Source: Rhizobacter sp. AJA081-3
GTDB lineage: Bacteria > Pseudomonadota > Gammaproteobacteria > Burkholderiales > Burkholderiaceae_C
Direction of reading: 5' to 3'
NCBI RefSeq assembly: GCF_017795745.1
Contig: NZ_CP059067.1
Coordinates: forward strand, 1,302,001-1,366,000
DNA length: 64,000 nt
The translations under genes and the position numbers were made by a program. Positions 3,661 to 54,301 of this stretch are shown here, one piece after another; the first letter of the stretch is position 1, and each line of letters begins with the position of its first letter. A model generated the notes under the pieces. It was given only the letters and a program-made list of their open reading frames with translations. It was not told the DNA's origin and searched no databases.

Positions 3661-3675
3661 GCGACGCGCTGCCTG

Positions 3676-9345: not shown

Positions 9346-9390
9346 GTTCGAGGGATCGGGGCCGGGGCGAGCCCGGGGCATACTCGTAGG

Positions 9391-11619
9391 ATGTACGAGA
9401 CCCACTTCGGGATCAGCGGGCCGCCCTTCCAGCTCAGCCCCGACCCGAGCTTCTATTTCGACAGCCAGGGCCACCACGAGGCCCTGGCCACACTGCGCCG
9501 CGGGCTGGCCGACCCGACAGGTTTCGTGGTCGTCAGCGGCGAGATCGGTGCGGGCAAGACCACGCTGGTGCGCACGCTGCTGGCGGAGCTCGACTCCTCG
9601 CGGCTGGTGGTCGGCCAGGTGCTGACGACGCAGCTCGACGACACCGAGCTGATGCGCAGCCTCGTGCTGTCCTTCGGACTGCCGGCGAATGCCGATTCGC
9701 CAGGTGCGCTCAACGAGATCCTGCAGAACTTCCTGGCCACGCTGACGCAGGATGGGCGCCGCGCCGTCCTCATCGTCGACGAGGCGCAGAACCTGCACCG
9801 CAGTGCCTTCGACTGGCTGGTGCAGATGGAGAAGGGCAAGGTCGCGGGCCGGGCGCCCTTGAAGATCTGCCTGGTGGGCCAGCCGGAGCTGCGCGACCTG
9901 GTCGCGTCGGGGGACCTGCTGGCGCTGCGCGAACGTGTCAGCGCGCAGTGCCACCTCGGGCCGCTGGGCCTGAACGAAACCGGTGCCTACATCCGCCACC
10001 GCCTGTCCAAGGTCGGCTGGAGCGGCGTTCCCAGCTTCGAGCCCGGCGCCTTCGAGGAGATCCATCGCTGGACGGGCGGCATCCCGCGGCGCATCAACCT
10101 GCTGTGCAACCGGTTGATGCTGTCGAGATTCCTGTCGTCGCAGGTCAAGATCGACGTCGAGGCCGTGGCCGCCACGGCGCAAGACCTGCGCGCCGAGATC
10201 GGCGACACCTCGGCACCGCCGCCGCCCGCTGCGGCGGCGCCGCCTGCCGCAGCCTCACCGGTTGCCACACCGGCTCCATCTCCCGCACCGGCGTTGCCGG
10301 TGTTGCGCGAAGCCGTCGCACCCGCACGCCCCTCGGCGCCGATCAAGGTCAAGGCGCCTGCGCCGGCTCCGGCGCCTGCCGCCGTCGACGTGGATCTGGA
10401 AGTCGACATCGGCGAGCCCCTCGGCGCAGCGCAGCCGGCGTTGCCGCCACTGCGCAGTGGCGAGGAGTCGCGCCCCCTGCTGTGCGTGGTCGGCGGGCAG
10501 GGCGAGCACGTCAAGGCCGCAGCGCTGATGCATGCCCTCGCGGGCCGGCCCGAACTGCCTGTGACGCTGCTGGTGCGCTGTTACGCCAACAGTGCCTTCG
10601 AGCGGCATCGCGACATGTTCGCCGGCCTCGACGTGGCCGGCCGGCTGGTCAGCCTGGGCATCGCCGGGGGCACCTATGCCGGCCGGGCCGCCGAGCTGAT
10701 GAAGCGCTTCGAGTTCGTCGTCGACCACTGCCAGCCGGCCGCCGTGATCGTGTTCGACGGCAGTGACGCGGCCTTGTCCTGCGGGCTGGTGGCCAGCCGC
10801 AAGGGCCTGCCGGTGCTGCACGTGGGTGCCGGCCTGCGCAGCGGCAGCAACGCCGATGCGGCCGACATCACCCGGCGCCTGGCCGACCAGCTCTCCGACG
10901 TTCTCTACACCGCCGAGCCGCAGGCCAACCAGCAGCTCGCGCAGGAAGGTGTCGCCAGCGAGCGCATCCAGTTCGTCGGCAACCCGCTCGCCGACGCGCT
11001 GCAGATCGCCCTGCGCACCAAGCTGCCGGTGGCCAATCCGCGTGAGCGCCTGGGCCTGCCCGCCAACCTGCTGTCCGACCGCAACGGCTACGGCGTGGTC
11101 ATCCTCGATGCCATGCCCAACGTGGGCGATCGGCAGGTGCTGTCGGAGCTGATCGCGATCATGCGTGCCGTCGCGCACGACGTGCCGCTGGTCTGGCCGA
11201 TGCACACGCGCACTCGCGAGCAGCTCTCGCGCTTCAAGCTCGACGCCATCGTCGCCAGCGAGCGCATCGCCACGCTGCCCTCGCAGAGCTACCCGTCGCT
11301 CGTACAGCTGATGTCCAACGCCACCTGCGTGATCACCGATTCGTGGAACGTGCAGGAAGAAGCCACCGTGTTGTCGATCCCGTGCCTGACCATCGGTCTC
11401 GGACAGGAGCGCGCGACGACGGTGGCGGTGGGCTCCAACCTCGTCGTCGGCCGCAACAAGGCGCTGGCCACGCGTGCCGTGTGGGACTGCATCTTCAACG
11501 GCGGCAAGCGCGGCCGCTTGCCCGAACTGTGGGACGGCCACGCCGCCACGCGCATCGCCGAGCACATGTCGGGCTTCCTGCAGGCGCGGCGCAGCGCGCG
11601 CAGCAGCGTCACCGCTTGA
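9391..11619 (+). CDS. ExeA-type AAA ATPase fused to a degenerate UDP-GlcNAc 2-epimerase-like domain
   Basis: A 742-residue fusion. Residues 1-270 are an ExeA/GspA-type AAA+ ATPase (Walker A GEIGAGKTT at 50-58, Walker B VLIVDE at 126-131), the type found as the XrtA/PEP-CTERM-associated ATPase. Residues 275-345 are a Pro/Ala-rich linker. Residues 360-735 match the WecB/MnaA epimerase fold: HVGAGLRS at 477-484, VGNPLADAL near 530, TDSWNVQEEA at 649-658. The WecB catalytic residues are not kept: the HVEAGLRT glutamate is Gly479, the HRREN histidine region reads AMPNV (574-578), and DSGG is DSWN. It is probably a sugar-nucleotide-binding or scaffold domain and not an active epimerase. Its last 11 bases overlap the convergent transporter gene. 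Confidence 0.85.
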   Translation: MYETHFGISGPPFQLSPDPSFYFDSQGHHEALATLRRGLADPTGFVVVSGEIGAGKTTLVRTLLAELDSSRLVVGQVLTTQLDDTELMRSLVLSFGLPANADSPGALNEILQNFLATLTQDGRRAVLIVDEAQNLHRSAFDWLVQMEKGKVAGRAPLKICLVGQPELRDLVASGDLLALRERVSAQCHLGPLGLNETGAYIRHRLSKVGWSGVPSFEPGAFEEIHRWTGGIPRRINLLCNRLMLSRFLSSQVKIDVEAVAATAQDLRAEIGDTSAPPPPAAAAPPAAASPVATPAPSPAPALPVLREAVAPARPSAPIKVKAPAPAPAPAAVDVDLEVDIGEPLGAAQPALPPLRSGEESRPLLCVVGGQGEHVKAAALMHALAGRPELPVTLLVRCYANSAFERHRDMFAGLDVAGRLVSLGIAGGTYAGRAAELMKRFEFVVDHCQPAAVIVFDGSDAALSCGLVASRKGLPVLHVGAGLRSGSNADAADITRRLADQLSDVLYTAEPQANQQLAQEGVASERIQFVGNPLADALQIALRTKLPVANPRERLGLPANLLSDRNGYGVVILDAMPNVGDRQVLSELIAIMRAVAHDVPLVWPMHTRTREQLSRFKLDAIVASERIATLPSQSYPSLVQLMSNATCVITDSWNVQEEATVLSIPCLTIGLGQERATTVAVGSNLVVGRNKALATRAVWDCIFNGGKRGRLPELWDGHAATRIAEHMSGFLQARRSARSSVTA

Positions 11620-36150: not shown

Positions 36151-36852
36151 TCAGCGCGGTGCACGCGGCACAGCGATCGCGCCGATGGTGTCGCCGTGCC
36201 GGAAGGAGCGCACGGCCAGGTGGAAATCGCGGCCGTCCCAGCGCAGGCGCACGTCGCGCGGGCCCGGCGCCAAACCGGCCTCGAAGCTCGCGGGCTCCAG
36301 CGACAGGCCGCTGCCCACCACCTTCAAGCAGGCTTCCTTGCGCGTCCAGCCGTGCAGGAACAGGGTGTCGCGCGCCGTCTCGTCCTGGCCGCAGCGATCG
36401 AACTCGCTCAGCTCGGCCGGGGTGAAGCAGCGCTGGGCCAGCGCGTCGAGGTCGTCTACGCGGTGCAGCAGTTCGACGTCCACGCCGATCTCGCCCAGGG
36501 CTGCCAGCGCGAGCGCACCGACATCGCCGCTGTGGCTGAGGTTGAAGGCCAGCGGTATCGCGCCTTCCAGCCGCGGCTTCCCGTGCCGCGATTCGCTGAA
36601 GCGCAACGAGGCCGGCGGGTTGCGGGTGGCCTGGGCGAGCAGCGAGCGCAGCTGCACGTGCGCGGCTCGATAGCGCCGGCGATCGCGTTCGAACGCGAAG
36701 CGCGCGGCGCGTGCCTGCTCGTCGGCCGACAGCCCGCCGAGCTGCTCGGCCGAAGGCTCCACGGTCAGGTCGAGCAGCCACAGTCGCACGTCGGGCCAGC
36801 CGGCCAGCGAACTCAAGTCCGTGGCGCCCGCCGGCGCGGCGGCACCCGTCAT
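36151..36852 (-). CDS. Sfp-type 4'-phosphopantetheinyl transferase
   Basis: A 233-residue enzyme that attaches the phosphopantetheine arm to carrier domains. The magnesium-binding motif GVDVE is at residues 123-127, WTRKEACLK at 169-177, and the FNLSHSGD substrate loop at 103-110. It is the last gene of the minus-strand synthetase operon, 3 bases after the stop of the C-A-PCP-C-A-PCP gene. It should prime the five carrier domains of the two synthetases and perhaps the lone ACP at 2391-2642. The size fits the Sfp/Gsp class, not AcpS. Confidence 0.92.
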   Translation of the reverse strand: MTGAAAPAGATDLSSLAGWPDVRLWLLDLTVEPSAEQLGGLSADEQARAARFAFERDRRRYRAAHVQLRSLLAQATRNPPASLRFSESRHGKPRLEGAIPLAFNLSHSGDVGALALAALGEIGVDVELLHRVDDLDALAQRCFTPAELSEFDRCGQDETARDTLFLHGWTRKEACLKVVGSGLSLEPASFEAGLAPGPRDVRLRWDGRDFHLAVRSFRHGDTIGAIAVPRAPR

Positions 36853-36855
36853 GCC

Positions 36856-39800
36856 TCAGCCGCGCAGGCCCTTGACGATGCGGCCGAGCCAGCCGGAGCC
36901 GGCTGCCGCCGTGCCGTCGGGCGTGGCCGCAGCAGCGGCCGCGGCCGAAGCCACCGCGTCAGGCTGCGCCGCGACCTGCGCCAGCGTCTCGAAGATCAGC
37001 CGGCGCACGCCCAGCCGCAGGCCGAGCCGCTTCTCGATCTCGACGACCGCGCGCATCGCCAGCAGCGAATGCCCGCCGAGGTCGAAGAAGTTGTCGGCCA
37101 CGCCTACGCGCTCCACGCCGAGCAGTTTCTGCCAGATATCGGCGATGGTGATCTCGGCCGGCGTGGCCGGCGCCGTGAAGGCGCTGCGTCGACCGTCGTC
37201 GGCTGCACCGTCGATGCCCGGCAACGCCTGCGTCGCCACCTTGCCGTTGGGTAGCAGCGGCACCGCGTCGATCGCGACGTAGTGCTGCGGCAGCATGTAC
37301 TCAGGAAGCTGGGTGCGCAGATGCTCGCGCAACTCGGCCGCCGCTGGCAGCGTGCCGCGGGCCACGATGTAGGCGACCAGGCGCGCATCGCCCGGTTGCA
37401 CCTCGCGCACTGCCGCGACGACACGCGCCACCGCCGGGTGCGCGGCGAGCTGCGCCTCGATCTCGCCGATTTCGATGCGGTGGCCGCGCAGCTTGACCTG
37501 CGAGTCCAGCCGGCCCAGGTGCTCCAGCAGACCCTCGGCCCGCCAGCGGCCCTGGTCGCCCGTGCGGTACAGGCCGGCGCCGGGGTTCAGCGGATCGGCG
37601 ATGAAGCGTTCGGCCGTGAGCTCGGGGCGGTCCAGGTAGCCGCTGGCCAGGCCCGAGCCACCGATGAAGATCTCGCCGGCCACGCCGGTCGGGCAGGGTG
37701 CGCCGCGTGCATCGAGCACGCGCAGCGTGGTGTTGGCGATCGGCGTACCGATGCTGATGCCGTGCTCCGGCGACTGCACGCGCCAGCAACTCGACCACAC
37801 CGTGGTCTCGGTCGGGCCGTACATGTTCCACAGCGCGCCGCTCCGTTGCATCAGCTGCATGGCCAGGTCCAGGGGCAGCGCCTCGCCGCCGACCAAGGCG
37901 CTGAAATGCGCGCCGCCTTCCCAGCCGGCGTCGATCAGCATGTGCCAGGTCGAAGGCGTGGCCTGCATGACGGTGGCCGCGCTGCTCTCGACGAGCGCAC
38001 GCAGCGCGCGGCCGTCGCTCACGTCGTCGCGGCTGGCCAGCACCACCGTGGCGCCGACTGTCAGCGGCAGCAGCAGTTCGAGCACGGCGATGTCGAACGA
38101 CAGCGTGGTCACTGCGACGATGCGGTCGGCCGCCGTCAGGCCCGGCTCGGCCTGCATGCTGAGCAGGAAGTTGACGACGGCTCGGTGCGGCAGCACCACG
38201 CCCTTGGGCCGGCCGGTGGAGCCGGAGGTGTAGATCACGTAGGCCGGATCCTCGGGGCGGGCGTCGTGTTCGGCATCGGCCTGGAGAGCTTCGTCGCTTT
38301 GGCGGTCGATCGCCGCGACGTCGATGTCGAGCAGCACCGCGCTCTGGCGCGGCCAGTCGATGGCCTGGATGGTCGAGGAGTCGGCCACCAGCATCGCCAA
38401 TTTCGCGTCGGTGGCCATGTACTGCAGCCGCTCGCCGGGGTAGGCCGGATCGAGCGGCACGTAGGCTGCGCCGGCCCGCATGATGGCGTGCTGCGCGACC
38501 AGCATCGCCGGCGAACGCTCCAGGCACAGGCCGACCAGGGATCCACGACCGATACCGCGCGAGCGCAGCAGCCGGGCGAGCCGGTTGGCGCGCCGGTCGA
38601 GCTCGGCGTAGTCGAGCGTCTCTTCGCTGGAGACGACGGCCTCGTGCTGCGGCGTGCGCTGCATCTGCGCGGCGACCAGGTCGACCACGGTGACAGGCGG
38701 CAAGGCCATGGCGCGGCCCTCGCTCCAGGCGGCGATGGCGTCCCGCTCGGCCGGCGTGGCCACGTCGATCTGGTCGACGCGCGCATCCGGCGCCTGCAGC
38801 GCGGCGCCCAGCACGCCGGAGAAGCGCTCGACCAGCCGCTGCGCGGTGGCGTCGGTGAAGATGTCGGTGTTGAAGGTCAGGCCGCCGGTCAGGCCGCCCT
38901 CGTGCTCGAGGAACCACAGGCCCAGGTCCTCCGCTGAGCCGGGCTGGAACAGCAGCACCTGCTCCTGCTGCAGGCTGCCCCACTGGCGCAGGCGCTGGCG
39001 AGCGTCCTGGAAGGAGAAGAAGGCCTGGTAGATCGGCGAGCGACTCTCGTCGCGGGCCACCCGCAGCTCGCGCACCAGGTGCTCGAAGGGAACGTCCGGC
39101 GCGCCGAAGGCGTCGAGCACGGCGCCGCGAACATGGTTCACCAACTCGCGGAAGCTGCCTTCGGGCCGCACGGTCAGACGCAGCGGTAGCGCGTTCACGA
39201 AGAAGCCCATCACCTTCTCGAGCGCGCTGTCGTTGCGCCCCCGCACCGGCGTGCCGATGACGATGTCGTGCTGGCCGCTCAAGCGGCTGAGCAGCAGCGC
39301 ATAGGCCGCCAGCAGCGTCATGAACAGCGTCGCGTCGGAACTGCGGCCGAACTGCCTCGCGGCGTCGACCAGCTCCTTCGAGCAGTTCAGCCACTGCGTG
39401 CTGCCCTCGCCGGATGCGCGCGCGGGGCGGCTGCGGTCGGTGGGCAGGGCCAGCGGCTCGGGCAGGTCGGACAGGCGCTGCTTCCAGTGCTGCACCTGCT
39501 CGCGCAATTCTTCGCTTTGCAGCCACTGCTGCTGGCCGGCGGCGAAGTCGGCATAGGTGATCGGCAGCGGCGGCAGCGAGTGGGGTTTGCCTGCCACGTA
39601 GGCGCCGTAGATCGCCGCCATCTCCTCGTAGAACAGGTCGAACGACCAGCCGTCCCAAATTGCATGGTGCGGCATGAAGAACAGCACGTGCTCCTGCGGG
39701 CCGAGCCGGTACAGACCGTGGCGGAACATCGGCGCGGTGCCGATGTCGATGGGCACGGCCACCCGCGCCTTCATGCGCTCGAGCAGTTCGGCCTCGCGCT

Positions 39801-42800
39801 CGGCGGCGGGCAGATTGGAGAGGTCCTCGACCGGGCCGAGCGAGAGCACGAGCTCGGGCGCGATGCGCTGCATCGGCTCGCCGTCGGCATCGGCCACCAG
39901 CGCGGTGCGCAGGATGGGCTGGCGGCGCACCATCTCGTTGAGGGCGCGCTCCAGGGCCGCGACGTCGAGCGGGCCGGTCAGCCGGTGCGCCGACGGCGTG
40001 TTGTAGGTGACGCGGCCGGGCTCGAGCTGCTCGAGGAACCACAGGCGCTGCTGCATCAGCGACAGTGGCGCGCGGTCGGCTTGCGCGCGCGGCGGGGCGG
40101 CGGCCGGTGTCGCCGGCGCGGGAGTGGCCGGCGCGGCAGCCACCGAGCGCGCATCCAGCCAGGCGGCCAGCTGCGTCACCGTCGGCGCCTCGAAGATCGC
40201 GCGCAGGGGCACACGCGCGCCGGTGCTGCGGCCCAGTGCGTTGGCCAGCTGCGTGGCAAGCAGCGAGTGCCCGCCGAGCTGGAAGAAGTTGTCGTCGTCG
40301 CCGAGGCCGGGCAGGGCCAGAACAGTCTCCATCGCCGAAGCGACAATCTGTTCGGTCGGCGTACGGGGTGTCGTGCGGCGCGCCGCTTCGGAGGCGGCCA
40401 GCACTGGCGCAGGCAGGGCGCGGCGATCGATCTTGCCGTTGGGCAGCAGCGGAATCGTGTCGAGCGCAACGAAGTGCTGCGGAATCATGTATTCCGGCAG
40501 CAGGGTGGACAGGTGCTGGCGAAGTTCGGCGGCCTCGGCTGCGGTGCCCTGGGGTACCACGTAGGCGACGATGCGCACATCGCCGGGGCGCATCTCCCGT
40601 GTCACCGCCAGTGCTCTCTGCACCTTCGGGTGCGAAACGAGATTGGATTCGATGTCGCCGAGCTCGATGCGGTAGCCGCGCAGTTTGATCTGGTGGTCGA
40701 TGCGGCCCAGGCATTCCAGCAACCCGTCGTTGCGCCAGCGGCCCAGGTCGCCGGTGCGATAGCGCGTGGCGCCAAGGGCTCCAAGGGGGTCGGCCACGAA
40801 GCGATCCGCGTTCAGATCGGGTCGTTCGTGGTAGCCCAGCGTGACACCTTCGCCGGCAATGACCAGTTCACCGATGGCGCCCACCGGCAGCAGGCGCAGC
40901 TTGTCGTCGACCACGTCGAAGCGCGTGTTGGCGATCGGCGCACCGATGGGAATGCCGGAGTCCGGATCGTGGACCCGCCAGCAGCTCGACCACACGGTGG
41001 TCTCGGTGGGGCCGTACATGTTCCAGAGTTCGCTGGTGCGGGCCAGCAGCTGTTGGGCCAGATCGGTCGGCAACGGCTCGCCGCCGACCAGGGCCTTGAA
41101 CGAGCCGCCGCCTTGCCAGCCGGCGTCGATCAGCAGCCGCCAGCTCGACGGCGTGGCCTGCATCACCGTGGCGCCGCTGTTTTCGACCAGGCTGCGCAGC
41201 GCCTGACCGTCGCCCACCTCGTCGCGACTGGCGAGCACCACCGTGGCGCCGACTGAGAGAGGCAGCAAGAGTTCCAGAACTGCGATGTCGAACGACAGCG
41301 TCGTGACGGCGACGAGGCGGTCCGCGGCCGTCAGCCCTGGCTGCCGCTTCATGCTGTGCAGGAAGTTGACGACCGAACGATGCGGCACCAGCACACCCTT
41401 CGGACGACCCGTCGATCCGGAGGTATAGATCACATAGGCGACGTCGTCCACGCTTCGCGCAGGGCCCTGGAAGCCCTGCAGCGGTGCCAGCGTGTCCACT
41501 GGCAGCGGCTCGGCATCGGCGAAGCGCCAGGGGCCGTCGACGCCGGCATCGGTGGCGACGATGCGCAGTTTCGCGTCGCTGGCCATGAAGGCCAGCCGAT
41601 CGGCCGGGAACGACGGGTCCAGCGGCACGTAGCCCGCGCCGCAGCGCAGCACGCCGAGCATTGCGACGAGCATGTGCTCGTTACGCGAGCAGGAGATGCC
41701 CACGAGTTCGCCGGGGCCGACACCGCGAGCCTGCAGCGCCTGCGCCATTGCATCGGCGCGCGCCAGCAATTCGCCGTAGCGCATGGAGCGGTCCCCGCTG
41801 ACCACGGCCACTGCGTCGGGCGTGGTGCTCGCCTGCGCGGCAATCAGGTCGTCGACGGCCTGGATGCGGTCATGGTCAGCGGCACTCGCGTTGAAGCGGG
41901 CCAGCAAGCCTCGTTCGGCATCTGTCGGGGCCAAGGCATCGGCCAGCGTGCACGCATCGTCCGCGGCCAGTCGCCGCAGGGCGGCGACATACAGCCCCAG
42001 CCAGCGCTGCACCGTGGCGGTATCGAAGAGATCGGTGTTGTACTGGCACTCGAGCACCAGCGTGTCGTCGATCTGGCTGACGTTGAGGAACAGCTCGAAG
42101 TTCTCGAAGCTGCGTGGATTGCCGCGCACCGAGACACGCATCGATTCGTCCGACAGCTCGCTTTCGGCGATGGCGGTATCGAGGTTGAACAGCACCGACA
42201 CCAGCGGCAGACGGCTCGGATCGCGTGGCAGTTGCAGCTTCTGCAGCAGGCCGCCGAGCGTGCATTGCTGGTGGTCGTAGGCGTCCAGCGTGGCCGTGCG
42301 CGAGGTCTCCAGGAGCGTCTTTGCACCGTGGTCGATGTCGAACGACAGACGCACCGGGAGCAGGTTCAGGCAGTGCCCGACCAGATCGTCGTGACCGGCG
42401 GCGGCTTGACCGGCCGCGGGAACGCCGACGACCACATCCGAACTGCCACTCAGGCGGCCGACGAGCGCGCCGAACAGGCCGAACAAGGTGCTGAACAGAC
42501 TGCTGCCGTGGCGTGCAGCCAGCTTGCGTGCGGCCTGCGACAGCACGGCGTCGATGACGACGTCTTCACGCCGAGATGCGAAGCTGCGGTAGGCCGGCCT
42601 TGGCCGGTCGCACGGCAGCTCCAGCGGCATGCCGCCGCCGTCGTGCACGCCGATCCAGTAGCGCTCGTCGCGCTCACGTTCCGCCTGCGCCTCGGGGGTG
42701 GCCAGCGCGAGCGCATGGTCGCCGAACGGGTAGGCCGGCGCCATCGCCGCGCCCTGGCCGCTGCGCTGCGCGCGGTACAGGCGCATCAGGTCGTGCGACA

Positions 42801-43338
42801 TCACGCCGAGCGACCAGCCGTCGCAGACGATGTGGTGCGCGGTGAGGATCAGCTCGTGCGACGTGTCGCTGGTCGAGGCCAGCGCCGCGCGCACCAGCGG
42901 GCCGTTGCCCAGGTCGAAGGGCGTCTCGACCGCGAGGCGTCGCGCGCCGGCGAGCCGCTTGGCGGCCGCGTCGGCGCCCAGGTCACGCAGGTCGAGCCGC
43001 TCCAGCGCCAGCCGTGGCTCGGCGCTGATGACCAGTTCGGTGCCCTCGGGGCCGATCGTGCTGCGCAGCGCCTCGTGCCGCTCGCACAGAGCGAGCAGCG
43101 CGGCCTGCAGTGCCTGGGCATCGACAGGCCCCGTCATGCGCAGCGAGGCCGATTCGTTGTAGGCGAGCGAGGCTTCGGTGCCGAGCTGGTCGGCGTGCCA
43201 GATCTCGCGCTGCGCCTCGGTCGTCGGAACGACGCGCTGGATCTCTCCGCCGGCAAAGGGGTCGAAGTCGTCGTCGTTGCCGCTCAAGCTCGGGTCATCC
43301 TGCATGCTGCTGATCAAGGGGCTGCATCGATCGTTCAT
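36856..43338 (-). CDS. Two-module nonribosomal peptide synthetase (C-A-PCP-C-A-PCP)
   Basis: A 2160-residue synthetase. Condensation domain 1 has the intact HHIVCDG motif near residue 167; A1 has [11 protein letters not shown] near 637; PCP1 has GGHSLLA near 1024. Condensation domain 2 has HHAIWDG near 1223; A2 has [11 protein letters not shown] near 1701; PCP2 has GGHSLLA near 2088. Both A domains read the same pocket residues, D-I-L-Q-L-G-M-V-W, by hand alignment with GrsA, close to codes reported for glycine. No thioesterase or reductase follows; the protein ends in a short basic tail. The start overlaps the stop of the hybrid synthetase gene (ATGA), so it is the next station of the same assembly line. 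Confidence 0.93.
37720..41445. repeat. Duplicated adenylation-domain core within the NRPS gene
   Basis: The segment about 37720-38250 (module 2) and the segment about 40950-41445 (module 1) are near-copies at protein level from the [11 protein letters not shown] motif through [15 protein letters not shown], and also closely similar in DNA. The condensation domains before them differ strongly (HHIVCDG against HHAIWDG types). This points to recent duplication or gene conversion of the A-domain core. Confidence 0.75.
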
Positions 43339-46300
43339 GACACCGCCACGAACTTGCCGGGTTGCTGCGGATGCGGCACGAACCATTGCGGCTTGCCGTC
43401 CGGGCCGCGGCCCAGTCGCGCGCCCGGCACCGGCGGCTTCGACGCATCGACGGCAGCCGGCATGTCGGCGCGGCGCGGCAGGAACTCGGCCTGCTGCAGC
43501 TCGGCGATGGACTCGCGGAAGGCCGACTTGATGACGGCGATGTCGGCCGCGCTGTGCGCCGTGGTCATGAAGCAGGGGAAGTTGTCGAGGATGTGCACAC
43601 CGCGGCTGCGCATCATCGCGAACAGCAGGTCCTGCAGCGGGTGGTCCTCGAGCCAGCTGACGCGCCACAGCGACGCAAAGTGGCGGATCTCCAGCGGCGC
43701 GCCGACCTCGCGGCAATAGGCGTTGAGCTCGTCCGCGAAGGCGCCGGTCAGGTCGTTCAGACCGGACTGCAGCGCAGGGCCCGCCTGCTTGAGGTGCAGC
43801 AGCGAGGCCTTGGCCGCGGCCAGCGCCAGCGGATGCCGCACGAAGGTGCCGGCGAAGTAGGTCACGCCCACGGTGGGCACCGAGTCGTCGCCGAACTGCC
43901 AGGCGCCGCCGTCCAGCGCGTCCATGAACTCGCGTTTGCCGGCCACCACGCCGATCGGGAAGCCGCCGCCCACCACCTTGCCGTAGCAGGCCAGGTCGGC
44001 GCGGATGTCGAACAGCGCCTGCACGCCGCCCGGGTGCGAGCGGAAGCCGGTGATGACCTCGTCGAAGATCAGGCAGCTGCCGGCCTTTGTGGTGATCTCG
44101 CGCAGTTCCTTGAGGAAGGCGACCGGGCGGAAGTCGGGGCGGCGGCTCTGCACCACCTCGACCAGCACGGCGGCGAGGTCGTCGGCGTTGCTGCGTATGA
44201 ACTCCAGCGCCTCGGGCGTGCCGTACTCGAGCACGCGCACGTCGCCGAACACGCCCGGCATGATGCCCGGCGCCGCCGGGATGCCTTTGCCGCCGCGGCC
44301 GGCGCGCACCAGCACTTCGTCGAAGGTGCCGTGATAGGAGCCGGTGAACAGCACCACCGTGTTGCGGCCCGTGACGGTGCGCGCCATGCGGATGGCCGCC
44401 ATCACCGCCTCGGAACCGGTATTGCAGAGGCCCGCGCGATCGAAGCCGGTGAACTCGCAGATCAGCTTTGCAACTTCGCCGGCCAGCGGATGCTGCGGGC
44501 CGATGTCGTAGCCATCATCGAGCTGCTTGCGCACCGCGTCGTTGATGAAGTCGGGCTGCCAGCCGAACAGGTTCATGCCAAAGCCGTTGAGTACGTCGAC
44601 GTACTCGTTGCCGTCCAGGTCCCACATGCGCGAGCCCTTGCTGCGTTCGATGACGAGCTGGTAGACGATCTCCTTGATCGTCGGGCGGAAGCCGTTGACG
44701 ACGCGCGGGTCGGCAAGGTGTGGCCGGTGCTCGACGGTGTAGGCCTTGCTCTTGGCGGTGCGCTCGATGTAGCGGCGCATGAAGGCATCGAGCCGGGCGC
44801 GCTGCCGGTCGGTGATGCTGCCCGGCTGGGTGTGGATGCGGGCGATGGCGCCGAAGGCCTTCTTGACGTCGTAGGTGATCGGCTTGGCCGGCTCGTCGGC
44901 CGCGGTGGCAGATTCGGCGGCGGGGGCGGGGGCAGCGACTTGCACCGTTGCCGCAGCCGTGGGTGCTGCGGTCGGGGCCGGCAGCGCAGCCATCGGCGCT
45001 GCGCCGGCAGCGCCCAGCAGCGCGAGCTGTTGCGACATCAGCTGCATCTGCTGCTGGATCAGTTGCTGGAGCATCGGGCTCGACGCATTCACCGGCTGCA
45101 TCGCCATCGACTGGAAGACCGGAGCGGCGGCCATCGCCGGCATCGCCGCGGCGGCTTGCGCGGCCACTGGTTGCGCGTCCAAGGGGGCCACGGCCGGAGC
45201 CGCTTCGGCGGGAAGCGTCTCGTCGAGGTACTGCGCCAGCGCGTCGAGGCTGCGCAGCTTCTCCATCAGCTGGCGGAAGGTGACCGCCACGCCGAACTGG
45301 CGCTTCACCTGCAGCGCCGCTTGCGTCAGCGTGAGCGAGTCCAGTCCGAGCTGCAGGAAGTCCATCGACGTGTCGGCCTGTGCGAGGTCGACGCCGGCAA
45401 CGTCCTCGAACACCGTTCGCAGGCGCGTCACGAGCTGCGGTCGGCGCGAGGCCGAAGGTGCAGCAACGGGATTGGAAGCCGGGGCAGAGGTGTTTGAAGT
45501 CATGGTGGCAGTGGCTGCGGGAGCAACAGGAATCGAAACGGGGGTGGCGTCGAGCCAGTGGCGCTTGCGCTCGAAGGCATAGCCGGGCAGAGGCACGCGC
45601 CGGCGCCGTGTGGCGGACGATGCGGCGAAGGGCAGCTCGCGGCCCAGCGTCCACAGCTCGCCCTGGGCGAGCGCGAAGCGGGTGAGTTCGGCCTCGGGCG
45701 ATTCGCCCAGGCTGGGCACGGCGGCGATGCTCTGCTGGCGGGCCAGCGCAGTGAGGGCGCCGCGCGGGCCGAGCTCGATGAAGATGCCCGGATGGCGTTC
45801 CTTCGCCGTGCGCAGCGCCGGCGCGAAACGCACCGGCTCGCGCAGCTGGCGGGCCCAGTACTGCGGGTCGCGGGCCTGCGCGTCGGTCAGCCAGGTGCCG
45901 GTCATGGTGGAGACGATCGGAATCGCCGGTGCGTTCAGGCGCGCCTGGCGCACCTCGCGCTCGAAGGGCTCGACCGCTGGCCCCATCTGCGCCGAATGGA
46001 AGGCGTGAGATGTGTGCAGCACGCGCACCGCGAGGCCTTGCGCTTCGAACGACGCAGCGCAGGCGTCGATGGCCTCGGCCGGGCCGGCCAGCACGCAGGC
46101 GTTCGGGCCGTTCTCGGCGGCCAGCGAGATCTGCGGTGGCAGCAGCGGCGCCAGTGCCTCGGCCCCGAGCCGCACCGACAGCATGCGGCCTGCGGGCAGC
46201 GCCTGCATCAGCGCGCCGCGGCGCGCGACCAGCCGGGCTGCGTCGGCCAGCGACATCACGCCGGCGACCACTGCCGCGGCGAACTCGCCGATGCTGTGGC

Positions 46301-49300
46301 CGAGCAACGCCGCCGGCTGCGCGCCGCGCGCCAGCCAGGCCTGCGCGAGCGCATATTCAAGGCAGAACAGCGCCGGCTGGGTGGTACCGGTGTGCGACAA
46401 ATCGTCCTCGCCATCGAACATGCGCGAGCGGATGTCAAAGCCCAGCCAGGGCTGCAGCGCGGCGGCGCAGGCGTCGAAGGCCTCGCGGAAGGCGGTGTCC
46501 TGCGCGTGCAGCTGGCGGCCCATGCCGGCGTACTGCGAGCCCTGGCCAGTGAACATCCATACCAGCGCCGGGCTGGAGCCGAGCGACTTGCCCGTGACAC
46601 GCTGTGCCCCATCGGCGCCGCGCAGTGCGGCCACGGCCTCGGCGATGGATTCGGCGCGAACGACCAGGCGCTCGGCAAAGCGGCTGCGGCCGGCGCGCAG
46701 CGTGTGCGCCACATCAGCGAGGTCGAGCTGCGGATTCGCTTCGAGATGGGCGGCGAGTTGTACCGCCATCGTGTCCAGCGCGCCGCGAGTGCGCGCCGAC
46801 AACTGCAGAAGTTCAGGCCCGTGGCCGCGCGGCAGCGGCACCGGCAGCGGCGCTTCTTCCATCACCACGTGCGCGTTGGTGCCGCCGATGCCGAAGGCGC
46901 TGACGCCGGCGCGGCGCGGCGCGTGGCCCCGCGGCCAGGCCGTCAGGCTGGTGTTGACGAAGAAGGGGCTGGACGCGAAGTCGATCGACGGATGCGGCGT
47001 GTCGTGGTGGATGCTCGGCGGCATCTGTTCGCGCGCCAGCGACAGCGCGGTCTTGATGACGCCGGCAGCACCGGCGGCGATGACCATGTGGCCGACGTTG
47101 CTCTTCAGCGAGCCGACGCGGCAGAAGCCGGTGTCGGCGGTGCTGCGGCGGAAGGCGCGGGTCAGGCCCTCGATCTCGATCGGGTCGCCCATCGGTGTGG
47201 CGGTGCCATGCGTCTCGACATAGGAGACGCTGCGCGCGTCGATGCCGGCGTCCTGCTGCGCGGCGGCGATCACGGCGGCCTGGCCGACCGAACTCACCGC
47301 GGTGAAGCTGGCCTTGTCGCGGCCGTCGTTGTTGACGGCGACGCCGCGGATCAACGCGTAGACGGTGTCGCCGTCGGCCTGCGCATCGCTCAGCCGTTTG
47401 AGCACCACGACGGCGGAGCCGTCGCTGAACACCGTGCCGGCGGCCTGCGCGTCGAAACTGCGCGTGCGCGCATCGGGCGACAGGATCGAGCCTTCCTGGT
47501 GCAGGTAGCCGCTCTTCGGCGGGCAGTGAATGGAGCTGCCACCGGCCAGCGCCATGCCGCACTGGCCGGCGCGCAGGCTGAGCACCGCCTGCGCGATGGC
47601 CACCAGCGAAGTCGAACAGGCGGTGTTCATGCTGACCGCCGGGCCGGTCAGGTCGAGCCGGTTGGCGACGCGCGTGGCGATGTAGTCCTTCTCGTTGGCC
47701 AGCATGGCCTGGAACTCGCCGAAGGCCTCCACGCGCTGCGGATGGGACGACAGGTGCCGTTGGAAGTAGGTGGCGTTGTGCATGCCGGCGAACACACCGA
47801 CCGGCACGCTGCTGCCATCGGGTGCGTGGCCGGCGTGCTCCAGCGCGTGCCAGCACAGCTCGAGGAAGACGCGCTGCTGCGGGTCCATCAGCTCGGCTTC
47901 GCGCGGCGGGATGCCGAAGAAGGCGGCGTCGAACAGTTCCACGCCATCGACGACGCCGCGCGCCTTCACGTAGAGCGGATCGGACGTCAGCGCGGCGGGC
48001 AAGCTGGGGTCGAGCTCCTCGACGCTGAAGTGGCGGATGCTGTCGCGGCCGTGGCACAGGTTGTCCCAGAACTGCTCGACGTCGGCCGCGCCGGGGAAGC
48101 GGCCGGCCATGCCGATGATGGCGATCGGCTCGTCCACGCGGGACGGGTCGACGCGGCGTGCAACGCGGCGTGCTTCACCGGACGCGTCGCCACCCGTTCC
48201 GGCGATTTCGCGGGCCAGCGCGGCCGGCGTGGGCAGGCGCAGGAACGCGGTGGTCGACAGCGCGCCCGTGCCGTTGCGCTTGAGCGCAGCGAGCACCTTC
48301 AGCACGAGCAGCGAGTTGCCGCCGAGCTCGAAGAAGTTGTCGTCGCGGCCGACTGTGTCGATCTTCAGCACCGCGCCGAAAGCGGCGCAGATCGCCTGCT
48401 CGATCGCGCCTTCCGGAGCCTCGAAGGGCGTGCCCAGGTCCGGGCGGCCGGCAGGGGCGGCGGGCAGGGCACGCCGGTCCAGCTTTCCATTCAGCGTGAT
48501 CGGCAGCGCGTCCAGCCACACCCAGGTGTTGGGCACCATGAATTCGGGCAGGCGCGCACCGAGGTGGGTGCGCAGATCGGCGGCCGTCGGCGCGCTGCCG
48601 GCCGGCACGATGTAGCCGACGAGCCGGGCCGCATTGCCGTTCTCGGCAGGTGCGGCCACGGCACAGGACTTCACCTGCGGGTGGGTGGCCAGCGCGGCTT
48701 CGATCTCGCCCAGCTCGATGCGGAAACCGCGGATCTTGACCTGTGCGTCGGCGCGGCCGACGAACTCGATGCGGCCGTCAAGCAGGAAGCGCACACGGTC
48801 GCCGGTGCGGTAGAGGCGATCGCCCGCGGCACCGAAGGGATCGGGCACGAATCGCTCGGCGGTCAGCGCTTCGCGCTTGAGGTAGCCCCGGGCGAGACCC
48901 GGCCCGCCGACGAACAGCTCGCCGACCAGTCCGGCAGGCAGCGGCTGCAGGCTCGGGCTCAGCACATAGGCCAGCGTGTCGTTGATCGGCCTGCCGATCG
49001 GCACCGAGCGCGCGTCCGCGGGCAGGTCGTGCGGGATCGTGCAGGTGGTCGTGAAGGTCGTGCACTCGGTCGGGCCGTAGCCGTTGATCAGCGTGAGGCC
49101 GGGCAGGGCCTGCAAGGCGCGACGCACGTGTGCGACCGACAGTGCCTCGCCGCCGATGAGCAGCTGGCGCAGGCCGGCCAGGTGCGAAGGATCGTCGTCG
49201 ACCACGGCGTTGAACAGTGCGGCGGTCAGCCAGGCGGTCGTCACCTCGCCGTCGCGGATGCTGCGCGCGAGGCCGGCGGCGGTGGGCAGGGCCTCGTCGT

Positions 49301-50492
49301 GCAGCACGCAGCGGCCGCCGTTGAGCAACGGGCCCCAGACTTCCAGAGTCGACGCGTCGAAGCCCAGCGGCGCGGCGTGCAGCATGGCCCGGCCCGGCAG
49401 GTCGACGTAGCGCGCGTCGACGACCAGGCGCAGTATCGAGCGGTGCCGGATCTCGATGCCCTTGGGCGTGCCGGTCGAGCCGGATGTGTACATCACGTAA
49501 GCGACGCTGTCGCCGTCGGCCTGCGCAGGGCGCAGTGTCTCTGCCGGACCCGACTGCAGGTCTTCGATCGCCAGCACCGACAGGCCCGCGGGCAGCAGCG
49601 CGCGCTGCGCGCTCGACCCGATCGCCACGCGCACGTCGGCATCTGCGACCGTGAAGGCCAGCCGCTCGGCGGGATGGTGCGTGTCCAGCGGCACGTAGGC
49701 TGCGCCGACCTTCAGGATGCCGAGCAGGGCGACGATGCCGTCGATCGAGCGCTCGAGCGCCACGCCGACGCGCTCGCCGGCCTGCACGCCGGCAGCTTGG
49801 AGCTGCGCCCCCAGGCGCGTCGAAGCGGCATCGAGCGCGTGATAGCTCAGCCGCTGCGCGCCGAGCTGCAGCGCGGTGGCGTCGCCGTGCCCTTGCACCA
49901 CCCGGGCGAACAGGCCATGCACCGTGAGTGCGGTTTCGCGCGGCTGCAGCGGCGGGTTCCAGTCGACGAACTGGCGCTGCTGCTCGTCGGCCGGCAAGTT
50001 GTCGATCTCGGCCAGGCGTGCCTGCGGCCGCTCGGCGAACTGGCGTGCCACATGCACGACGCAGGCGAGCACGGCCTCGGCCTGCGCGCGGTCGAGCCGT
50101 CGGGCATCGAAGTCGAGCTGGAACTCTGCACCATCGGGCGTGACCCGCCGGATCTCGATCAGCGTGTCGGTCGCATCGTCGGGGAGCTGGCGGCGCTGCG
50201 CGTCGATGTGGGCGATCCACTGCGTCGCGTCCAGCGTCGCATCGGCCGTGGACGGATGCGTCCCGAGCCAGCGGCCCGAGACCAGGTGCCAGGCAGCGGC
50301 GGCCATGGATTCCGGCATCCAGCCGGCCTGGCGAGACGTCTCGTTCATCTGCGCCACCAAGCGAGGTTCCAGCGCAACAGCCACCTGATCGCGGGGGGCG
50401 TCGTCGCGGGCCGGCTGCGGTGGCACGAAAAGGTCGGCCACGGTCAGCGAAGGCGCGTCGAGCTCCACGGGGGAGAGTGGCTTCGTCTGCAT
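43335..50492 (-). CDS. Hybrid NRPS-PKS with aminotransferase (A-PCP-KS-AT-ACP-AMT)
   Basis: A 2385-residue enzyme. Residues 1-160 look like the C-terminal remnant of a condensation domain without HHxxxDG. The A domain spans about 165-690 ([11 protein letters not shown] near 335); PCP has GGNSLL near 722. KS has NTACSTS near 957-963, with the His residues in ETHGTA and KSNVGH. AT has GHSIGEF near 1398 and HAFHS, the malonyl-CoA type. ACP has LGLDSL near 1718. A Pro/Ala/Gln-rich linker follows, then a PLP aminotransferase of the glutamate-semialdehyde type from 1880 with the lysine of [10 protein letters not shown] near 2171. No ketoreductase is seen. The A pocket reads D-A-L-W-L-G-G-T-F, near valine-type codes. 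Start 50492 (MQTKPLS) is chosen over 50591; neither has a strong Shine-Dalgarno. Confidence 0.92.
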
Positions 50493-50723
50493 GCGGGATT
50501 CGCCAGTGAAGGTCCTGTTCGTCCAGGAGGACCGCGCAGCGGTGCGTTGCGCTCGCAAACGGGTTTCTGGACGAGGGTGCGAAACCCGCACGACCTGTGA
50601 GCCGGTGCCGGTGGCCCGACCTTCTGAGGGTGAGGGTCATTATCGTGGGCGAGTGCTTGCTGCGGACCCCTAAGACGGGTGGATCAAGCCCCGCAAAGCG
50701 ATGCGCATACTGCGAGTGTGCAA
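50493..50723. promoter_or_regulatory. Divergent intergenic region of the synthetase locus
   Basis: A 231-base gap between the minus-strand hybrid synthetase and the plus-strand SGNH hydrolase. It likely holds both promoters. A GATAAT-like -10 on the minus strand is at 50639-50644, but no convincing -35 partner was found. No operator palindrome was recognised. Confidence 0.4.
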
Positions 50724-51830
50724 ATGTCGACATTACTCAGAGGGCTGCTCACAACGACGTGGACTGTGTCTGCACTCGGCGTGGCCGCGCTCGTGTTCTT
50801 CGCCGACGGATTTCAGTTCGCCGGGCCCGATGGTTTGCAGACGCGCCCCGAGTCGGCCGCGCCGCTGGCTGTGCTCGGAGACTCGGACAGCCACTCGTAC
50901 CAGGACAAGGTCTCCTTCCCCGCAGGCAGTGGCAAGCGCGGCGGGGCGTACCGCGCCACCACGCTGCAATGGACCGAGGTGCTCGCGCGCCTGAGGCCCC
51001 AGGAACTCGACCAGGGTGAGTGGGGTGTGTGGGGCGTGCACCGGGTCGTGGCGCGGGTGCAGGATTGGGTGGGCCTGCAGAACCGGGCGCCTCGCAAGGA
51101 GGACTACCAGTACAACTTCGCCATCTCCGGGGCGGGCTGCGAAACGCTCACCACGGGCGGCGGCCGCCAGGTGCAGCGCTTGCTGTCGCTGATGGACCGC
51201 GAGCCGGCACGCTGGCGCGATGGCGTGGTCGTGCTGCGCATCGGTGCCAACAGCTTCGGCATGGACGACGGACTCGATCAGTTCGCCCGCGATCCGATGG
51301 GTGCCGGCATCCAGGGCGAAGTGGCGAAGTGCCTGTCGCAGGTGCGAACGGCCATCGCGCTCGTGCACGCGAAGCACCCGCAGACGCGTTTCGTGCTGGT
51401 GGGCATTTTCGACAACACCCACTGGCCGCGCTACTTCGACCGCTGGCAGTCGCCGCAGGCGCTGGCGAATGTGGCTCGCGGCCTGGATGTTTACGACAAG
51501 GCGCTGCAGCGCATGGCCGCCGTTGACCCGCGCATCGCCTTCCTCGACGATCGTGCCTGGTTCGCTGCGCGCTGGGGGACCCGCGACGCGCAGGGCCGGC
51601 CCGCGTATCGGCCGGTTGTTCTGCCCTCGGGCCTGACGGTGCACAACACGATCGGCGACGAGCCGCAGCACGCGGTCATCGCCGACGGGCATGCCGGGCT
51701 GGTGTGGAACGTGCTGTGGGCCCAGTCCTTGGTCGAATTGCTGAACCAGCGCCTTGGCTTGAAGATCACCCCGATCGGCGACGCCGAGGCCTCGCGTCTC
51801 GTCGACTCGCTGCTCGCCTCGAATCGTTGA
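50724..51830 (+). CDS. SGNH/GDSL-type hydrolase with N-terminal membrane anchor
   Basis: A 368-residue protein. Residues 8-27 form a hydrophobic anchor or signal segment. The catalytic serine block is GDSDSHSY (S54), a GAN block III is in RIGANSFG, and the Asp-His pair is D321-G-H323 in the block V position. It probably acts in the periplasm as an esterase or O-acyl hydrolase. The start ATG at 50724 is preferred; GTG alternatives at 50679 and 50718 are possible. It is divergent from the hybrid synthetase and followed after 11 bases by a methyltransferase-like gene. A role in maturing or releasing the product, or in polysaccharide modification, is inference. Confidence 0.8.
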   Translation: MSTLLRGLLTTTWTVSALGVAALVFFADGFQFAGPDGLQTRPESAAPLAVLGDSDSHSYQDKVSFPAGSGKRGGAYRATTLQWTEVLARLRPQELDQGEWGVWGVHRVVARVQDWVGLQNRAPRKEDYQYNFAISGAGCETLTTGGGRQVQRLLSLMDREPARWRDGVVVLRIGANSFGMDDGLDQFARDPMGAGIQGEVAKCLSQVRTAIALVHAKHPQTRFVLVGIFDNTHWPRYFDRWQSPQALANVARGLDVYDKALQRMAAVDPRIAFLDDRAWFAARWGTRDAQGRPAYRPVVLPSGLTVHNTIGDEPQHAVIADGHAGLVWNVLWAQSLVELLNQRLGLKITPIGDAEASRLVDSLLASNR

Positions 51831-51841: not shown

Positions 51842-52657
51842 ATGGGTCCCTTTGGATTGATGCACGGCCTGGTGGATGCGCTCAAGGTGGCGCCCGGTGT
51901 GCTGCAACTGCGTCGCGCCTCGGCCGAACGCAACTTCGCGAACAACTTGCGCTCGAACCTGTTCCGCGGCGTATTCGACACGGCACAGGCGGCCCTGGCC
52001 AGCGCGCCGCCGACCCGGCCGCTGAGCTACGACAACGAAGGCTCGGCCAACCTGTACCTCGAGCGCCTGCAGATCGACGACTACGACTACCCTTCAATGT
52101 TCTGGTTGAAGCAATCGTTCGACGAGGGCATGACGAGCCTGGTGGATGTCGGCGGCAGCATCGGCATCAAGTACTTCGCCTTTGGCGAGCTGATGAGCTA
52201 TCCATCGAACCTGCTCTGGCGCGTCATCGACATGCCGGCGGTGGCCGAGCGCGGGCGGCAGTTCGCCGCGAGCCGCGGCGCTCCCGCGGCACTTCAGTTC
52301 TCCGGCGACATCGCCGACGCCGACGGGGTGGACATCATCTACGCCTCGGGCGTGCTGCAGTACCTTCCGCAGACACTCGCGGAGATCGTCGCGGGGCTGA
52401 CGCGCAAGCCGCGCCGCATCATCGTGAACACCGCGGCGATCCATCCGAGCAAGAGCTTCTTCACCCTCAACAGCATCGGAACGGCGTTCTGTGCCTACCG
52501 CGTGCAGTCGCGCGATGAATTCGTCGCTGGCGTCATCGCCCAGGGCTACACGCTGCGGCACGAGTGGCGCAACATCGGCAAGCCGCTGCGCCTGCCCTTC
52601 GAGCCCGGCCACAGCCTCGAGGACTACGCTGGCTTCTGCTTCGACGTGGTGTCCTGA
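51842..52657 (+). CDS. TIGR04325-type putative methyltransferase
   Basis: A 271-residue protein with a Rossmann-type SAM-binding pattern (SLVDVGGSIGIKYFAFG near residues 100-116) and the overall pattern of the TIGR04325 family, often found in polysaccharide and natural-product loci. GGAG at 51833-51836 sets the ATG at 51842; an upstream in-frame ATG at 51704 lies inside the hydrolase gene and is rejected. It forms a two-gene operon with the SGNH hydrolase. Its last 34 bases overlap the convergent hydrolase gene. The acceptor is unknown. Confidence 0.8.
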   Translation: MGPFGLMHGLVDALKVAPGVLQLRRASAERNFANNLRSNLFRGVFDTAQAALASAPPTRPLSYDNEGSANLYLERLQIDDYDYPSMFWLKQSFDEGMTSLVDVGGSIGIKYFAFGELMSYPSNLLWRVIDMPAVAERGRQFAASRGAPAALQFSGDIADADGVDIIYASGVLQYLPQTLAEIVAGLTRKPRRIIVNTAAIHPSKSFFTLNSIGTAFCAYRVQSRDEFVAGVIAQGYTLRHEWRNIGKPLRLPFEPGHSLEDYAGFCFDVVS

Positions 52658-53505
52658 GCGCCGAAGACCTCGCCGGCCCAGCCGGCGATGGCGTCGATGA
52701 CACGGCGCTGGGCCGACAGCGTGCTCAGCGTGTGGTCGATGTCGGGCAGGAAGTCGCAGCGCACGCGCGCGGCGAACGGCCGGTCGCCGAACACGTCATG
52801 GAACTGCTTCGCGTAGCTGTACCGCCACAGCATGCCGCCGGAGTGCATCAGGAACATGCGGCCACCGCGCCGGTCCAGCGTGTCGAGCATCGCGGCAAAG
52901 TCTTCGAGCGGCGGGGTGCTCTGGCCGTAGTCGATCTCCAGCGGCTCGCCGCCGTCGACAGCCGGCGCTGGCCGCGACAAGCGTGCCGCCAGCGATCTCA
53001 GAGGCCAGGCCGCCCAGGCGCGCAACGTGGCTGCAGGATCACGCCGCCACTGCAGCAGGTAACGCTCCAGGCGCGACCGGCGGCCCGGGTAGGCGTAGCC
53101 GTCGAGCATCCACAGGCCGACCACGCGCTCGTCTTCCTGCGCCACCGCCAGACCGCGGTGCGCGCCCGAGCAGATTCCGGCGATCACGAACCGCTTCAGC
53201 CCAGTGGTGCGCTCGAGGTGATCCATCGCCGCGCGCAGGTCGGCGACGATCTGCCGCTCGAAGGGCTGCGCCTGTGGCGCGTTGTCGCTGTCGCCCTGGC
53301 CGGCGAGGTCGAAGCGCAGGCTCGGCCAACCTTGTGACGCGAGCTGCCGCGCCAGCTTGACGTTGAAGCGGTGTGGCCCGATGCGGTGGATCACGCCCGC
53401 ATTGAGCATCAGGAAGCCGACGTCGCGCTGGCCGAGTTCGTCGGGCAGCGCCAGGGTGCCCGACAGATGCTTGGCCGGACCGAAGCTGACGGCGATCTCA
53501 TTCAT
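52624..53505 (-). CDS. Alpha/beta hydrolase, exosortase-A-associated hydrolase-1 type
   Basis: A 293-residue alpha/beta hydrolase. The nucleophile elbow reads G110-I-C112-S-G114, so the nucleophile position is Cys, not Ser, as in dienelactone hydrolase and in the hydrolase-1 family of exosortase-A loci. A late Asp-His pair (DIDHT) can complete a triad. It starts at 53505, overlapping the stop of the upstream hydrolase by 8 bases (ATGAATGA), so the two are coupled. Its 3' end overlaps the methyltransferase gene by 34 bases. The substrate is unknown; with no thioesterase domain in the synthetases, it is a candidate releasing or editing enzyme (inference). Confidence 0.82.
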   Translation of the reverse strand: MNEIAVSFGPAKHLSGTLALPDELGQRDVGFLMLNAGVIHRIGPHRFNVKLARQLASQGWPSLRFDLAGQGDSDNAPQAQPFERQIVADLRAAMDHLERTTGLKRFVIAGICSGAHRGLAVAQEDERVVGLWMLDGYAYPGRRSRLERYLLQWRRDPAATLRAWAAWPLRSLAARLSRPAPAVDGGEPLEIDYGQSTPPLEDFAAMLDTLDRRGGRMFLMHSGGMLWRYSYAKQFHDVFGDRPFAARVRCDFLPDIDHTLSTLSAQRRVIDAIAGWAGEVFGAQDTTSKQKPA

Positions 53506-54301
53506 CGGCGGCCGCCCCGATGTGTGTGGCAAGCATCTCGAGCACTGGCGCCGGGACCAGGGCGGTGCTCAGGGCTTCTTCCGAAGACCAGTCGAACACG
53601 TGCGAGAACTCGTCGACGTGGGTCTGCAGCCCCGCACGGGAAAGGCCCTGCGCGAGCGCAGCGCCGGCGGCGTGATGGGGCGGCAGTACCAGGGTGAGCT
53701 GCTTCGCCTTCGCCGCTTCGAGGTCGGCCGGAGCGAGCTGGCCGAGCTGATCGAGCAGGGCCGCGCCCACGCCGAAGCCCAGCGCTTCGTCGACGATGGC
53801 CGGCTTCACCGCGCTCGTGCGCAGCGCGCCCGCCTCGGCCATGGCGCGGCCATGGGCCGCATTGAGTTCACCGAGGTATTGGTGTCCATCGACCACCGGC
53901 TCCCACAGGATCAATCGATCGACCGGTGAGGGCAGCTGGCTCGAGGCCAGTGCCGCGATCGTCGCACCCAGGCGTGCGCCGAGCCAGATGACGCGAGTGG
54001 CACGGCTGCGGCGCAGGAGTTCGTTGTGGGCGAGCAGCACATCGTCGCGCCAGCCGTGAAGCTCGCCGTCTTCGTCCTCGCCGGCGGATTCGCCCACGCC
54101 GAAGTAGTCGAAGCGCAACACACCGATGCCGCCGCTGGCCAGCCGGTCGCTGAGCACGCGCAGCATGCGGTGGAAACGAACCGCCTCCTGGCCGAGCGGG
54201 TTGCACACGAGCACGCCGACGCCCTTCGTGCGGGCGGGTGCCGCCGGGTGGAAGACACCGTACAGCTGCCTTGCCGCCGGGCCGAAACGGAACGGATTCA
54301 T
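53498..54301 (-). CDS. Alpha/beta hydrolase-like protein, hydrolase-2 type (no Ser/Cys nucleophile)
   Basis: A 267-residue alpha/beta-fold protein. The elbow that normally carries the nucleophile reads G108-A-R110-L-G112, with Arg in the nucleophile place, a feature of the exosortase-A-associated hydrolase-2 group. So it may be a non-catalytic partner of the next gene, to which it is coupled by an 8-base overlap. The first ATG of the frame at 54301 is used. The gap to divergent lgt is 230 bases. Pairs of this kind usually lie beside exosortase or exopolysaccharide genes; here they lie beside the synthetase locus. Confidence 0.78.
   Translation of the reverse strand: MNPFRFGPAARQLYGVFHPAAPARTKGVGVLVCNPLGQEAVRFHRMLRVLSDRLASGGIGVLRFDYFGVGESAGEDEDGELHGWRDDVLLAHNELLRRSRATRVIWLGARLGATIAALASSQLPSPVDRLILWEPVVDGHQYLGELNAAHGRAMAEAGALRTSAVKPAIVDEALGFGVGAALLDQLGQLAPADLEAAKAKQLTLVLPPHHAAGAALAQGLSRAGLQTHVDEFSHVFDWSSEEALSTALVPAPVLEMLATHIGAAADE

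Follow-up and report, generated by a model that had tools for sequence, protein, structure and literature searches.

A thioesterase-less hybrid synthetase operon of Rhizobacter sp. AJA081-3, its companion hydrolase pair and a possible link to exopolysaccharide

Domain layout and predicted product

The window analysed here, a 64,000-nucleotide stretch of the Rhizobacter sp. AJA081-3 genome (positions 1302001-1366000 of the single 5.4 Mb contig), carries a compact operon in which a hybrid polyketide synthase/nonribosomal peptide synthetase (PKS/NRPS) is encoded by two genes, here called gene A and gene B, followed by a gene for a 4'-phosphopantetheinyl transferase (PPTase) (Table 1). On the minus strand, the Pfam matches of gene A run AMP-binding, PP-binding, ketosynthase (KS), acyltransferase (AT), PP-binding and Aminotran_3, and gene B has two Condensation/AMP-binding/PP-binding sets. 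This layout bears out a preliminary description of the same DNA, which had read A-PCP-KS-AT-ACP-aminotransferase (AMT) and then C-A-PCP-C-A-PCP (A, adenylation; PCP, peptidyl carrier protein; ACP, acyl carrier protein; C, condensation), with a PPTase of its own, an AT of malonyl type by its HAFHS motif and no ketoreductase (KR). The HAFHS motif was confirmed, and neither a KR nor a thioesterase appears in the Pfam listing of the synthetase at E 1e-5. All catalytic motifs searched for were found, including two HHxxxDG motifs and four carrier serines.

The genes are tightly coupled: genes A and B join in an ATGA overlap, and the PPTase gene starts 3 bases past the gene B stop. The ATG at 50492 coincides with the end of the cluster as first described; an in-frame GTG at 50591 is an alternative start of gene A. 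Residues 1-225 of gene A resemble by eye the C-terminal part of a C domain, and an NCBIfam NRPS model aligns from residue 134; Pfam lists no Condensation match within these residues. At E 1e-20, the only Condensation matches in the whole genome are the two C domains of gene B. The amino-acid adenylation model TIGR01733 scores 424 bits in gene A, compared with a cut-off of 317.

Table 1. Coordinates of the synthetase operon and of other features in the window
Feature	Position	Strand	Basis or remark
Gene A: (C-remnant by eye)-A (Val-like)-PCP-KS-AT (HAFHS)-ACP-class III aminotransferase	43335..50492	-	Pfam, motifs
AMT core in gene A, catalytic Lys in YGKVVGGG	43587..44660	-	Pfam Aminotran_3 1.3e-43
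Gene B: C-A (Gly-like)-PCP-C-A (Gly-like)-PCP, no thioesterase	36856..43338	-	Pfam, motifs
PPTase	36151..36852	-	Pfam ACPS 3e-14
abh1: alpha/beta hydrolase, GICSG elbow with Cys as nucleophile, akin to XrtA-locus hydrolase 1	52624..53505	-	
abh2: alpha/beta-hydrolase fold, GARLG elbow with Arg in place of the nucleophile, akin to XrtA-locus hydrolase 2	53498..54301	-	
XrtA-type exopolysaccharide locus, end part	1..11619	+	locus starts ~1254 kb in genome
Divergent GDSL/SGNH hydrolase, N-terminal hydrophobic stretch by eye	50679..51830	+	
TIGR04325-family methyltransferase	51959..52657 (open reading frame from 51704)	+	193.6 bits, cut-off 80

Substrate codes were mapped by hand onto the GrsA positions. 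They read DALWLGGTFK for A1 and DILQLGMVWK for both A2 and A3, which we take to be Val-like and Gly-like, in agreement with the valine-type first code and the shared glycine-like code given earlier. The AMT matches best the mycosubtilin AMT structures (E 3.6e-119 for 6kfm, the MycA AMT, and 6.2e-119), followed by glutamate-1-semialdehyde aminomutase (5.1e-51). The kinship with iturin/mycosubtilin synthetases proposed for this embedded pyridoxal phosphate (PLP) enzyme thus holds, and the class III PLP aminotransferase of MycA is clearly homologous to it. MycA also has KS-AT-ACP ahead of its AMT. In contrast to MycA, the window line is primed by an amino-acid A domain instead of a fatty-acyl ligase, is much shorter, lacks a thioesterase and is tied to polysaccharide genes. 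A comparable case may be the guadinomine-type pathways, in which a transaminase makes a vicinal diamine on a hybrid line.

Based on these assignments, module 1 would load a valine-like amino acid, and KS-AT would add one malonyl unit. Because no reductase is present (no KR match), a beta-keto thioester would be left to meet the fused AMT, which would turn the ketone into an amine and give a 3,4-diamino acyl group; gene B would then add two identical small residues, probably glycine. The Val and Gly codes, together with the missing KR, make (3,4-diamino-5-methylhexanoyl)-Gly-Gly a fair prediction of the product. No match to a characterised product was found, and no comparison against the characterised-cluster database MIBiG was made.

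A scan for relatives of the AMT gave 266 stretches at E 1e-3, of which the best 80 (at least 72% identity) were kept and studied; loci and genomes are designated below by L and G numbers. The AMT lysine is kept in all 88 sources, the last C domain shows HHxxxDG in at least 82 of the 88, and A1 reads DAxWxGGTF in 54 of 75. The A1 codes vary in the family, some being presumably Thr-like or Pro-like, and the substrates are predicted from the codes alone; a different short peptide could therefore arise from another module 1 starter, or from a chain that is not aminated at the beta position. The invariant lysine, the prevailing A1 code and the lack of a KR match argue against this alternative, which we regard as improbable.

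In most relatives, the last module lacks an A domain: of 84 sources, truncated and duplicate loci included, 75 have a single A domain downstream of the AMT, 6 have two and 3 have none. The sources with two are the window, L009 and L022 (one organism), L020, L089 and L101 (odd second code). In the one-A relatives, the single A domain may serve both of the last carriers; the two residues would then again be identical. A recent duplication from A2 to A3 is disfavoured by their 59% identity and by the A-domain tree, read without support values; on the same tree, L089 has its two A domains as sisters. In L062, A1 is a near-copy of A2 and both are Gly-like by code, so that the starter seems to have been swapped.

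The hydrolase pair abh1/abh2 and its proposed role in chain unloading

Judged by synteny with the relatives, the cluster includes two further genes, abh1 and abh2, the end of abh2 overlapping the start of abh1. The Cys and His of abh1 are present in 66 of 66 sources and the Arg at the nucleophile place of abh2 in 59 of 65, duplicates included. AlphaFold models of the two proteins have a mean predicted local distance difference test (pLDDT) score of 89.7 and 89.4, and the modelled Cys and Arg appear between strand and helix, as expected of a nucleophile elbow. A structure search with abh1 returned generic alpha/beta hydrolases with template-modelling (TM) scores of about 0.5-0.6. The best NCBIfam matches of abh1 and abh2, both below cut-off, are hydr1_PEP TIGR03100 (80.1 of 168.45 bits) and hydr2_PEP TIGR03101 (97 of 202.75).

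The XrtA/PEP-CTERM loci to which these models belong likewise have a Cys hydrolase preceded by an Arg-elbow partner, together with related export genes. In 12 relatives' loci above the hydr1 cut-off, the Cys was found in 12 and the upstream Arg elbow in 12 (the L174 string is poorly aligned), and the order of hydr2 before hydr1, with Cys in one and Arg in the other, is common to the window pair and the XrtA-type loci. The systems differ in that the window pair scores below the NCBIfam cut-offs and that a search with exosortase models found no XrtA exosortase in this genome, whereas the XrtA loci looked at have a discrete ligase (ligase_PEP_1) near the pair and no PKS/NRPS match. Among 60 relatives, true hydr1 and the synthetase occur together in one genome, compared with 1.6 expected, a difference too small to indicate that they exclude each other.

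The synthetase of the window stops 36 residues beyond the last carrier-domain match of gene B, and in 73 of the 75 loci with a readable stop it ends 22-46 residues past this match. Unlike NRPS lines with a C-terminal thioesterase, the window and 72 more of these 75 loci have no room for such a domain. The two that do carry one, L030 and L043, have 320 and 325 further residues, which match Pfam Thioesterase with a GxCxG motif. Both hydrolases are encoded in 60 of the 69 AMT loci of at least 19 kb, always as abh2 then abh1 and with abh1 on the synthetase strand, 58 times downstream of the AMT and twice upstream. At E 1e-8, no abh1 match was found in G073 and G072, the genomes of L030 and L043; the other 10 of the 12 genomes searched have one, which is weak in G056 and G075 and in G056 is its true hydr1. 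In the two cases found, the pair and a fused thioesterase are mutually exclusive.

Two natural abh2-abh1 fusions (L198:9454 onward, plus strand; L201:9256-11070, minus strand) hold both proteins in one frame, with the Arg elbow first and the Cys second. Additionally, in L196:1-11032 (G006) a second multi-module NRPS without thioesterase room is followed by an abh2-abh1 pair that overlaps the NRPS stop, and L197 (G004) has a similar NRPS and pair, but its NRPS frames are broken. We infer from this conservation that abh2 and abh1 form a split off-loader that replaces the thioesterase, in which abh1 would take the chain from the last PCP through its Cys nucleophile and abh2 would be a catalytically dead partner holding it. 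The searches made found no earlier literature on the role of the pair or on a polysaccharide link, and the excerpts of PMC1569441 and PMC9850573 are silent on the hydrolases and on NRPS.

Nearness to polysaccharide-export genes

The surroundings of the synthetase were analysed in 28 genomes, 20 picked from the 80 loci for spread and 8 more. Wza (PF02563) served as the marker, and its distance to the AMT on the same contig was compared with the expectation from a uniform null. Sixteen of the 28 genomes (15 without the sub-cut-off match of G074) have Wza at 50 kb or less from the AMT, against 1.23 expected; for other NRPS loci of the same genomes, used as a control, this holds in 3 of 34 cases. 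Within 20 kb, the figures are 11 of 28 genomes and 0 of 34 control loci.

In Variovorax (clusters of 13 and 16 loci, one in each confirmed by Pfam), the hydrolase genes are continued on the same strand by genes of Wza and Wzc type. An annotated replicon of Variovorax paradoxus has a run of TIGR04325 methyltransferase, synthetase genes, PPTase, alpha/beta hydrolase and a hypothetical gene, which continues with polysaccharide export, tyrosine autokinase and sugar transferase. In Rhodanobacter and Luteibacter, an abh1 homolog is located ~5 kb from Wza and away from the synthetase, and G044 has two abh1 copies in regions with polysaccharide-type matches.

The Rhizobacter window itself starts within the end part of an XrtA-type exopolysaccharide locus. 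This locus has export, chain-length, kinase and outer-membrane proteins of XrtA type over cut-off (TIGR03027, TIGR03007, TIGR03018, TIGR03016), and its end contains part of an Asn-synthase, a ligase_PEP_1-like ligase below cut-off and, at window positions 9391-11619, an XrtA-associated ATPase (below cut-off) fused to a UDP-N-acetylglucosamine (UDP-GlcNAc) 2-epimerase. Homologs of its WcaJ, Wza, Wzc, kinase and ATPase (50-71%) adjoin the synthetase in Methylibium, and homologs of its JmjC/cupin-like protein lie beside the synthetase in Thiomonas and others.

These arrangements suggest that the product decorates or works with the sugar coat. Once unloaded, the chain would pass to an acceptor that the XrtA-type polysaccharide locus supplies, a transfer most likely to occur in the cytoplasm. 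Taking all steps jointly, we put the chance that this PKS/NRPS operon without a thioesterase produces a beta-amino peptide destined for exopolysaccharide at only a little short of even. In a narrower proposal, which seems rather unlikely, a heterodimer of live Cys enzyme and dead partner would transfer diamino acid-Gly-Gly from the last carrier protein onto a sugar intermediate, and the XrtA-locus pair would do the same for simpler acyl groups.

Several observations weigh against a role in exopolysaccharide. In 12 of the 28 genomes, no Wza was found up to 50 kb from the AMT on its contig, which in some of them is short, and in this genome Wza is 87 kb from the synthetase, with ~24.5 kb and unrelated genes between the synthetase and the locus end. 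Five of the 16 genomes with a near Wza (G060-G064) are all Variovorax and so not independent, related strains inflating the count; the uniform null ignores the clustering of accessory genes, and the 3 control loci that have Wza in this range share a contig with the synthetase. No sugar-acceptor enzyme was identified. In the annotation of a Variovorax WDL1 replicon, neither a PPTase nor a hydrolase appears up to 16 kb from the AMT, and the full pair is absent from the examined stretch of 9 of the 69 loci: the two with fused thioesterases, L067 (abh1 only), L075, L020, and L015, L017, L089 and L101, for which an abh1 homolog is found elsewhere in the genome or just beyond. The thioesterase swap was seen in just two loci, possibly related ones, and the conserved hydrolases could also be editing enzymes. 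Finally, an exported molecule would be in keeping with the resistance-nodulation-division (RND) efflux gene that follows abh1 on the opposite strand in 16 of the 80 loci, others than the Variovorax clusters above; the single one tested is ACR_tran.

The last observation fits a free secreted small molecule, such as a metal binder or an aminostatine-like protease inhibitor, with the Cys hydrolase acting as a plain thioesterase and the nearness to Wza reflecting shared accessory islands or biofilm regulation. The fused thioesterases of L030 and L043, which make ordinary release possible, the 12 genomes without a close Wza and the sporadic occurrence in the order (at E 1e-60, 12 genomes out of 399, with at least 67% identity in 7) agree with it. 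On the other hand, other NRPS loci are seldom near Wza, and the pair is related to polysaccharide-locus hydrolases and in some genomes sits in such a region and not by the synthetase. We judge this explanation a serious one, though below an even chance.

The resemblance of abh1 and abh2 to exosortase-A associated proteins, the amine-rich predicted product and the two exosortases of this genome (XrtB and XrtQ, over cut-off) raise a further alternative, in which the product is the amine acceptor for exosortase in anchoring sorted proteins. Neither of the two exosortases is XrtA, whose model stays under cut-off, and 6 of 20 synthetase genomes gave no match to an exosortase, the same being true of G023 and G044; this alternative is highly improbable. 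Exosortase dependence as a general rule was rejected because of these 6 genomes.

Between the synthetase and the hydrolase pair lie the two plus-strand genes of Table 1. Matches to the GDSL/SGNH hydrolase also occur in L009/L022 (one organism), L016, L030 and L043, and the TIGR04325 methyltransferase is also near the synthetase in relatives. The names of some flanking genes are presumptive or were given by eye. A TonB receptor at window position 23175 might point to a siderophore. In L157 and L151 (G075), small carrier proteins, ligases and an Asn-synthase-like gene were seen by eye near the synthetase, as if two related pathways shared the region. A highly repetitive Val-Gln open reading frame in a polysaccharide locus (L159:12850-13314) is probably a repeat and not a gene.

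Spread, precedent and significance

By our own count, Variovorax is named in 48 of the 80 best relatives; the others include Xenophilus, Thiomonas, Rhodanobacter, Lysobacter, Luteibacter, Ideonella, Methylibium and metagenome-assembled genomes, among which one of Piscinibacter has a 99% copy. Close synthetase copies are present in the Variovorax records CP063167.1, NZ_LR594691.1 and NZ_LR594664.1, listed as plasmids, and AMT relatives of ~50% identity are found on many Rhizobium and Agrobacterium plasmids.

A similar-sounding system was described in 2014 for Burkholderia terrae BS001 (PMC4122924), namely a hybrid of PKS and NRPS that combines an aminotransferase with A domains predicted for Val and Gly. 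Its product is given as not known, and it has homologs in other Burkholderia, two more strains being mentioned. The likeness, which extends to KS and AT, lies in the domains described. The figure legend, common to another NRPS, lists a thioesterase (TE), in difference from the window, and the section on this hybrid mentions neither a polysaccharide link nor a hydrolase pair. With the relatives of at least 72% AMT identity and the Burkholderia hybrid, the synthetase kind is not unique. The preliminary description had not recognised this domain order; its reading of the domains, codes and AMT holds up, but it overlooked how widespread the family is, the absence of a thioesterase and what may replace it, and the tie to polysaccharide genes. 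What is new here is the lack of a thioesterase together with a hydrolase pair as its proposed stand-in, and the nearness to polysaccharide-export genes.

For hydrolases 1 and 2 of XrtA polysaccharide loci, the analysis suggests a concrete function that can be tested, namely unloading of a carrier-bound aminoacyl group, and it proposes a two-protein substitute for the NRPS thioesterase. It points to assembly-line-decorated polysaccharides in soil and water bacteria such as Variovorax, Thiomonas, Rhodanobacter and others. If true, a basic peptide on the biofilm polymer would alter its charge and metal binding, and the same pair in exosortase-A loci would gain a function.

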